From positions 1 to 42,461 of the forward strand of contig NZ_SNUQ01000007.1 of the NCBI RefSeq assembly GCF_012027555.1: a DNA stretch of 42,461 nucleotides. The letters are read 5' to 3'. The position numbers and the translations under genes were made by a program. The stretch's first letter is position 1; each line of letters starts with the position of its first letter. The notes under the pieces are model-generated. The model had not been told where the DNA came from. It did not search any database and worked only from the letters and a program-made list of their open reading frames with translations. The DNA is from Thermococcus sp. CX2. GTDB lineage: Archaea; Methanobacteriota_B; Thermococci; Thermococcales; Thermococcaceae. Of the stretch, positions 13,949 to 24,619 are shown in pieces.

Positions 13949-13961
13949 TTAGGTGGTTGTG

Positions 13962-14411
13962 TTGAGTGAATCGATCGACATAGTTTATGAAGCTTTGGGG
14001 CGCTATATCGACGGCCTCTGCGGCTCCACATACATCGGAACCGCGAGGGGAATGGTGGTCCTCTATAGAGGGGCAGAAATCCACCATCTAACGCCCCTCA
14101 AAGAGCCGCTACCGTTCCTGAACCTGTTCTACCGTAAGGGCACGGTGGAGATAGTTGGCGTATGGCGGGAGGAAAAGAGCGAGGCCTTCTTCCTGAGAGC
14201 GGCCGCGGCGGATGTCAGACTTTTCGAAGATGAAAGAACGATAAGCATCATCACATACCCCCGCACCGGGGACATGCAGGAGAGGGGAATGCTGATAATA
14301 ACGCTCCACGCCAACATGGGTATGGCCAAAACCCTAAAGAGCATAATACAAGAGGAGACCCGCTTCATAAAGAAGGAAGAGGTGGTGATTTCATCGAGGG
14401 TCAGCATCTGA
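13962..14411 (+). CDS. Uncharacterised Thermococcales protein
   Basis: The product is 149 residues from a TTG at 13962 (AGGTGG five bases upstream); GTG codons at 13959 and 13953 are alternatives. The sequence is mixed alpha/beta: MSESIDIVYEALGRYIDGLC, a central strand-rich part with GTARGMVVLYRGAEIHHL and GMLIITLHANMGMAKTLKSI. The pattern resembles small flavin-binding-type domains (DUF447-like) but I cannot name it with certainty. Its stop is followed within 6 bases by the convergent HEPN-like gene, and the C/D RNA lies across the junction on the other strand. Confidence 0.6.
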   Translation: MSESIDIVYEALGRYIDGLCGSTYIGTARGMVVLYRGAEIHHLTPLKEPLPFLNLFYRKGTVEIVGVWREEKSEAFFLRAAAADVRLFEDERTISIITYPRTGDMQERGMLIITLHANMGMAKTLKSIIQEETRFIKKEEVVISSRVSI

Positions 14412-14451
14412 AGCTCATCACTCCTCAGAACTCGGCAAACTCATCATCCCA
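14397..14451 (-). ncRNA. C/D box guide RNA overlapping the end of the HEPN-like gene
   Basis: Reading the minus strand, all four boxes occur in order: C box ATGATGA (14447-14441), 12-base guide GTTTGCCGAGTT, D' box CTGA (14428-14425), spacer GGAG, C' box TGATGA (14420-14415), 10-base guide GCTTCAGATG, and D box CTGA (14404-14401). GGG before the C box pairs with CCC after the D box (terminal stem). Such RNAs direct 2'-O-methylation at the base paired five positions before D or D'. The first guide complements AACUCGGCAAAC; its first 11 bases match a conserved 23S stretch (near E. coli 1670) that I recall. The RNA covers the last 11 codons and stop of the HEPN-like gene on the same strand; GCTTTAAGG at 14478-14486 could be its own TATA box. 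Confidence 0.85.
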
Positions 14452-14741
14452 CGAAGCCTTTCAAGGTCATCCCTTAAAGCACTTACCGTCTCTTCGTCGA
14501 AAAGGGTCATTCCGGAGTATCGCTTTATGACATCATAGACCTCCGGATGTCTGCTCTCGAGCATTCCCATAAGCTCCCTCGCCGGCAGGAGCAGACCTGT
14601 GTCGCGGTAAACGAGGTATGCCCCGATGGTGTAGAGGGCATCCATGTAGGAGTTATAGGCCATATCAAAGCGCCTCTCCTTCAGATAGTACTCTGCACGT
14701 CTTATATAAGACAGGGCCTTCTCAATGAGCTCCTCTTCCAT
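14418..14741 (-). CDS. HEPN-like helical protein
   Basis: From ATG 14741 (GGTGTGG upstream) the protein has 107 residues and is nearly all helical: MEEELIEKALSYIRRAEYYL then ERRFDMAYNSYMDALYTIGA resembles HEPN domains, which are four-helix bundles often found as RNases or nucleotide-binding partners of nucleotidyltransferases. No R-x4-H nuclease motif is visible, so it may be a non-catalytic HEPN protein. No MNT partner is nearby. The last codons double as part of a C/D box guide RNA. Confidence 0.6.
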   Translation of the reverse strand: MEEELIEKALSYIRRAEYYLKERRFDMAYNSYMDALYTIGAYLVYRDTGLLLPARELMGMLESRHPEVYDVIKRYSGMTLFDEETVSALRDDLERLRGMMSLPSSEE

Positions 14742-24563: not shown

Positions 24564-24619
24564 CTGCGATGATGAGTGAATCCAATGCTGACGGGATGAT
24601 GAAACCCCGACCTGAGCAC
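24564..24619 (+). ncRNA. C/D box guide RNA upstream of the DUF2391 gene
   Basis: All four boxes are present in order: C box ATGATGA (24569-24575), 12-base guide GTGAATCCAATG, D' box CTGA (24588-24591), spacer CGGG, C' box ATGATGA (24596-24602), 9-base guide AACCCCGAC, and D box CTGA (24612-24615). TGC before the C box can pair with GCA after the D box. A TATA box ends about 20 bases upstream, giving a transcript start at the RNA's end. The first guide complements AUUGGAUUCA, which I recall as a conserved archaeal 16S sequence (near E. coli 962), with the methylated base predicted as the G after UU. The second guide would target GUCGGGGUU, which I cannot place. Confidence 0.88.

Follow-up and report, generated by a model that had tools for sequence, protein, structure and literature searches.

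Can one strand at the end of a protein-coding gene serve both as codons and as a guide RNA, and, where it does, which of the two functions shapes the shared sequence? The question arises from a 42,461-nucleotide stretch of DNA (contig NZ_SNUQ01000007.1, the window), in which a sequence-only reading had placed a C/D box guide RNA across the last codons and the stop of a HEPN-like gene on the minus strand. Our comparisons establish the anatomy of this RNA, its conservation, the match of one guide to 23S ribosomal RNA (rRNA), a lock on silent sites in guide and promoter, and a protein tail that tracks the RNA. To judge from the sequences, the locus is very probably a C/D small RNA (sRNA) gene of the sR11 lineage with its own promoter, embedded in the 3' end of a gene for a HEPN-fold protein, whose D' guide would direct methylation of 23S C1812. 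We also think it likely, with somewhat less assurance, that a complete guide-RNA gene, promoter and RNA together, has been kept inside coding sequence and that selection on the RNA wrote the C-terminal tail of the protein, which is fixed where the RNA is present and diverges where it is absent.

A C/D box guide RNA at the 3' end of a HEPN-like gene

As far as sequence alone can tell, the presence of a C/D box guide RNA on the minus strand is confirmed, at 14398-14450, within one base of the coordinates first proposed (14397-14451). Read 5' to 3', the layout is complete: GGG, box C, D' guide, box D', GGAG, box C', D guide, box D and CCC. Archaeal C/D RNAs carry box C (RUGAUGA) and box D (CUGA) near their ends, joined by a short closing stem, and this RNA does so; its internal pair, CTGA-GGAG-TGATGA, has a spacer within the 3-6 bases expected. 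A guide is expected to be about ten bases long, to lie beside box D or D', and to complement rRNA or transfer RNA (tRNA), which is true of the D' guide and not of the D guide. The box sequences, the 12- and 10-base guides, the GGAG spacer and the GGG/CCC stem all match what the sequence-only reading had described. Its placement of the RNA also agrees with the coordinates of the open reading frames (ORFs): the RNA, running from 14450 to 14398, starts within the codons for GMMSLPSSEE, covers the final ten codons and the stop of the HEPN-like gene, and extends over the stop of the convergent gene. A regular expression for the four boxes found two sites in the 42-kb window, this RNA and a match to Rfam sR46 at 24565, and zero sites across 200 dinucleotide shuffles of the window. 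RNA energy folding was uninformative (z = 0.40), as expected, because the shape of a C/D RNA depends on protein-bound kink-turns.

The RNA and the codons that it shares with the protein

We collected 41 distinct HEPN orthologues, 29 with the RNA and 12 without it; one of the latter is cut by a contig end, leaving 11 complete. Every RNA-bearing orthologue (29/29) ends in the tail G-[MK]-M-[STN]-L-P-S-[SP]. The 11 complete RNA-less orthologues have unrelated C-terminal residues and lack the tail codons, and three more divergent hosts carry the RNA at the same place together with the tail GMKSLPSA. Within the guide core, the codons TTG, CCG and AGT are identical in all 29 RNA-bearing genes, which bears out the conservation of guide bases at silent positions that had been proposed as a check on the last codons. 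In the gene body, pairs of identical amino acids use the same codon at a mean rate of 0.48 and a maximum of 0.875 (64 columns). At the last residue, where the RNA leaves freedom, the protein has E, R, G, K or L. Silent changes that destroy boxes had been named as evidence against such a lock, and those found in relatives were only mild: one clade has CCGA for CTGA at D', and C' and D' mostly change together (7 of 8 cases).

The RNA also exists apart from this gene. Genomes G003 and G009 carry it at a locus in which no HEPN orthologue was detected; in the sister genus its position is 4-13 bases past a different gene, without coding overlap. With the silent sites locked, the tail codons missing from RNA-less orthologues and the RNA persisting without the HEPN gene, the claim that one strand acts as both codons and guide RNA holds up, and the comparisons support the view that the RNA, rather than the protein, dictates the tail codons. 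Presence and absence of the RNA require at least three state changes on the HEPN tree, so tail and RNA would have moved together more than once. The protein may bear the imposed tail because this is the disordered end of its predicted fold.

A putative promoter within the coding sequence

The sequence-only reading had also pointed to an internal TATA-like element, and one exists: in the upstream stretch ACGGTAAGTGCTTTAAGG, TTTAAG (14478-14473) ends 23 bases before the first G of the RNA. The median distance of start sites from the TATA box in T. kodakarensis is 23 bp (PMC4247193). TTTAA occurs in 28 of the 29 genes that carry the RNA and in 0 of the 11 that lack it (Fisher p 5e-9, relatedness ignored). 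The leucine of the promoter is encoded by TTA in 28 of 29 genes, a codon used for 4 of 296 leucines in the gene body; the codon before it ends in T in 29/29, though its residue is A, S or T, and the codon two before that one ends in A in 28/29. When a promoter motif was trained on 20 further C/D candidates from the window genome, this RNA excluded, its one comparable hit within the HEPN gene was AAGTGCTTTAAG, at -36 relative to box C; a score this high is attained at 0.13% of positions in the window. An internal promoter held by silent-site selection is likely, because TTTAA is kept at silent positions, is linked to the RNA, and matches the motif of other C/D genes. TTTAAG is not present in the three divergent hosts, G003 or G009, and the promoter claim is therefore limited to the main group.

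A genuine guide might instead have no promoter of its own, being trimmed from the 3' end of the HEPN mRNA while bound proteins shield it. A review states that archaeal C/D genes are mostly transcribed along with their neighbours, with a TATA-like motif in only 20%, and that C/D flanks can be changed without loss of maturation (PMC7994747). Trimming by itself does not account for a TTTAA that is locked at silent sites at promoter spacing and missing from RNA-less orthologues, nor for the fit of TTTAAG to a motif learned from other C/D genes, and we consider it unlikely as the sole route. An internal promoter and release from the HEPN mRNA may, however, operate together.

In the mechanism that we propose, transcription would start some 23 bases downstream of the TATA-like element within the A-L-R codons, at the 5' GGG or close to it. 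By analogy with the known family, whose members are stable RNAs of about 50-60 nt, L7Ae would bind both turns, C/D and C'/D', the particle would be completed by Nop5 and fibrillarin, and the D' guide would direct 2'-O-methylation of 23S C1812. As the coding strand is shared, the RNA would fix the G-M-M-S-L-P-S codons, and the protein would tolerate them in a disordered tail.

Homologues and the family of the RNA

A sequence model built from 16 sequences (the window RNA and 15 relatives) gives the window RNA 60.6 bits, though this RNA was itself in the model. Of 94 genomes of the order, 36 from the window's genus and 8 from a sister genus gave strong matches; we take these genera to be Thermococcus and Pyrococcus, leaning on Rfam's sR11 family. 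A pattern of boxes plus guide core was found in single copy per genome in 43 genomes, and the reversed control pattern had no matches in the genomes searched. The ten-base core TTTGCCGAGT is unchanged in the 34 distinct RNAs found, by a pattern that itself demanded that core, and the flanking bases vary on both sides. Box D is CTGA in 34/34. For D' two forms occur, CTGA and CCGA, and for C' three, TGATGA, TGACGA and TGAGGA. In a C/D kink-turn, base 2 of D' should face base 4 of C', and across the 34 RNAs these two positions read U/U in 26, C/C in 5, C/G in 2 and U/C in 1. C' or D' is altered in 8 distinct RNAs, both together in all but one of them; the covarying cases are L007-L011, L045 and L086.

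The copies of the sister genus are matched by Rfam sR11 (RF01150) at 42.7-55.1 bits (cut-off 39). They share with the window RNA the D' guide core and its 23S target, the box layout and a near-identical stretch from box C to box D'. They differ in two respects: the gene that they follow, presumably aIF2-beta, is not overlapped, and the D guide that they carry, TAAACAGTCG, complements 23S in the region of C1894 (as scanned on the 23S of the window organism). Because the D guide and the neighbouring gene differ, we call the window RNA sR11-like rather than sR11. The general Thermococcales C/D sRNA model, snoPyro_CD (RF00095), also matches the window RNA, though below its cut-off.

Species without the RNA include G012 and G088. 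Remnants of the RNA were sought in the RNA-less orthologues, and only L097, with its sister L103, was suggestive. Near the HEPN stop of L097, GATGACTCAGCGGG resembles a decayed box C' and D guide (1 of 100 shuffles is as good), and the same is seen in L103, a hint that the RNA was once present in these species and has been lost.

Predicted target of the D' guide and an orphan D guide

The D' guide pairs with 23S AACUCGGCAAAU through 11 Watson-Crick pairs and one G-U, a match equalled by none of 200 shuffled D' guides. In C/D RNAs the methylated nucleotide lies opposite the fifth base before box D', and this rule, applied to the pairing, predicts 23S C1812. The equivalent E. coli position, A1672, lies within AACUAGGCAAA (1668-1678), in keeping with the target near E. 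coli 1670 that the first reading had named. A literature search for the target sequence found no paper.

For the D guide, no convincing target was found in the organism's own 16S, 23S or the 39 tRNA strands recognised among 44 tRNA matches; its best rRNA score, 7.5, is reached by about half of shuffled guides, and none of the tRNA strands gave a match. There are at least 23 versions of it across species, and this second guide appears, from the comparison, to have been re-aimed repeatedly. The D guide of the relative G002 (L042/L011), GACTCAACCC, matches positions 577-586 of the window organism's 23S at every base (10/10); at least 22 other versions occur elsewhere. One published proposal is that an orphan second guide may arise as a by-product when the RNA gene overlaps its neighbour (PMC7994747).

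The same boxes could also be read as a kink-turn that acts in cis: with L7Ae bound to it at the 3' end of the HEPN mRNA, it would regulate this message and guide nothing in trans. The authors of the T. kodakarensis transcriptome suggested that some transcripts bearing kink-turns may be cis-regulatory (PMC4247193). An invariant ten-base guide core that matches 23S argues against this, as does an RNA that is kept in G003 and G009 without the HEPN gene and, in the sister genus, after another gene with no overlap, and we regard a purely cis-acting role as very improbable. That the boxes arose by coincidence, or from selection on a conserved peptide, GMMSLPSSEE, whose codons happen to spell them, deserves next to no weight: the peptide is kept in all RNA-bearing orthologues, but its silent sites are locked, it is missing from RNA-less orthologues, the RNA also occurs where there is no such ORF, disorder is predicted for the tail, and no such arrangement arose by chance in 200 shuffles.

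Features of the locus

Table 1. Positions of the guide RNA, its elements and the adjoining genes in the window.
Feature	Position	Strand	Basis or remark
C/D box guide sRNA, sR11-like, GGG/CCC closing stem to box D	14398..14450	-	boxes, Rfam/profile matches, homologues in 36 + 8 genomes
Closing stem	GGG 14450-14448 + CCC 14400-14398	-	sequence read
Box C, ATGATGA	14441..14447	-	sequence and homologue comparison
D' guide, GTTTGCCGAGTT (12 bases; core TTTGCCGAGT invariant; pairs with 23S AACUCGGCAAA)	14429..14440	-	predicted methylation at own-23S C1812 (E. coli A1672)
Box D', CTGA	14425..14428	-	CCGA in one clade
Spacer GGAG between D' and C'	14424-14421	-	sequence read
Box C', TGATGA	14415..14420	-	HEPN gene stops at the first TGA of this box, 14420-14418
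D guide, GCTTCAGATG (10 bases)	14405..14414	-	fast-varying; orphan here
Box D, CTGA	14401..14404	-	sequence and homologue comparison
Predicted promoter, AAGTGCTTTAAG, within the HEPN coding sequence	14473..14484	-	TTTAAG 14478-14473
Host gene, 107 amino acids from ATG (110 from upstream GTG)	14418..14741	-	five-helix HEPN-like fold; last ten residues, GMMSLPSSEE, inside the RNA
Convergent gene of unknown family	13953..14411	+	3' end, with the stop, lies over D guide and box D of the opposite strand

The host protein was modelled with five helices at high confidence (predicted local distance difference test 90.9); its end is disordered from about residue 102, and the C-terminal tail is the sole low-confidence stretch. 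The model aligns with the HEPN structures 1wol and 2hsb at query-normalised template modelling scores of 0.77 and 0.79, with Foldseek E values of only 0.025-0.029. No Pfam HEPN match was obtained even at E up to 1, and a PDB sequence search gave no match. The label 'HEPN-like' from the first reading is carried by the predicted fold and finds no backing in sequence; we regard it as a fair description. On the other strand, the stop of the convergent gene (14409-14411, +) falls within the D guide. In the relatives L003-L005 the convergent ORF spans the entire RNA, part of which overlaps two ORFs, one per strand.

Relation to known overlaps

Overlap of C/D genes with ORF 3' ends is already known in archaea, and the window RNA is ordinary in kind. 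About 25% of archaeal C/D genes overlap ORF 3' ends, with the stop codon inside the sRNA (Tripp et al. 2017, as reviewed in PMC7994747). The published cases resemble the window RNA in having a stop inside the sRNA, and an orphan guide has been suggested as a possible result of such overlap; in them the stop lies more commonly in box C, whereas here it lies in box C' and the promoter, too, is apparently inside codons. Differential RNA sequencing detected 54 C/D RNAs in T. kodakarensis, and of the 17 antisense ones 16 extend over the 3' end of the gene opposite them (PMC4247193); the window RNA covers the 3' end of its convergent neighbour. Genome G011 carries the RNA at contig position 1446212-1446265, on the minus strand.

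A census of the window genome listed 25 candidate C/D genes, 4 of which, this one included, share bases with the 3' end of an ORF (90 amino acids or longer) on the same strand. Candidate L064 (C4:50837-50896) overlaps the 3' end of a 511-residue ORF by 38 bases, and L053 (C2:240393-240447) that of a 153-residue ORF by 27 bases; both have TTTAA-type boxes upstream too. The second C/D RNA of the window, Rfam sR46 (65.9 bits; 24565-24617, +), lies wholly inside an antisense 177-residue ORF; on its own strand it also overlaps an ORF in the 5' part.

Discussion

Several points weigh against a complete sR11-lineage gene written into the end of the HEPN gene. The score for snoPyro_CD, 43.9 bits (E 2.8e-8), is 1.1 bits short of the gathering cut-off of 45, and that for sR11, 28.7 bits, is clearly below its cut-off of 39. 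The D guide has no target in the window species. Presence of the RNA is clustered on the tree, with three changes and few independent events, and the Fisher value for TTTAA overstates independence for the same reason. Finally, a published survey holds that most archaeal C/D genes need no promoter of their own (PMC7994747).

To the known overlaps, the present work adds an analysis of silent sites and protein tails over about 40 orthologues, in which RNA and promoter both occupy silent positions and the tail occurs only with the RNA. The same host with and without the RNA, and the same RNA with and without the host, form a natural series that tells which of two overlapping functions shapes the codons. 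It suggests that silent-site selection can keep an archaeal promoter within codons, and it shows how annotators can be led astray by a conserved protein tail when an RNA is the constraint. The predicted methylation of 23S C1812 is directly testable in T. kodakarensis.
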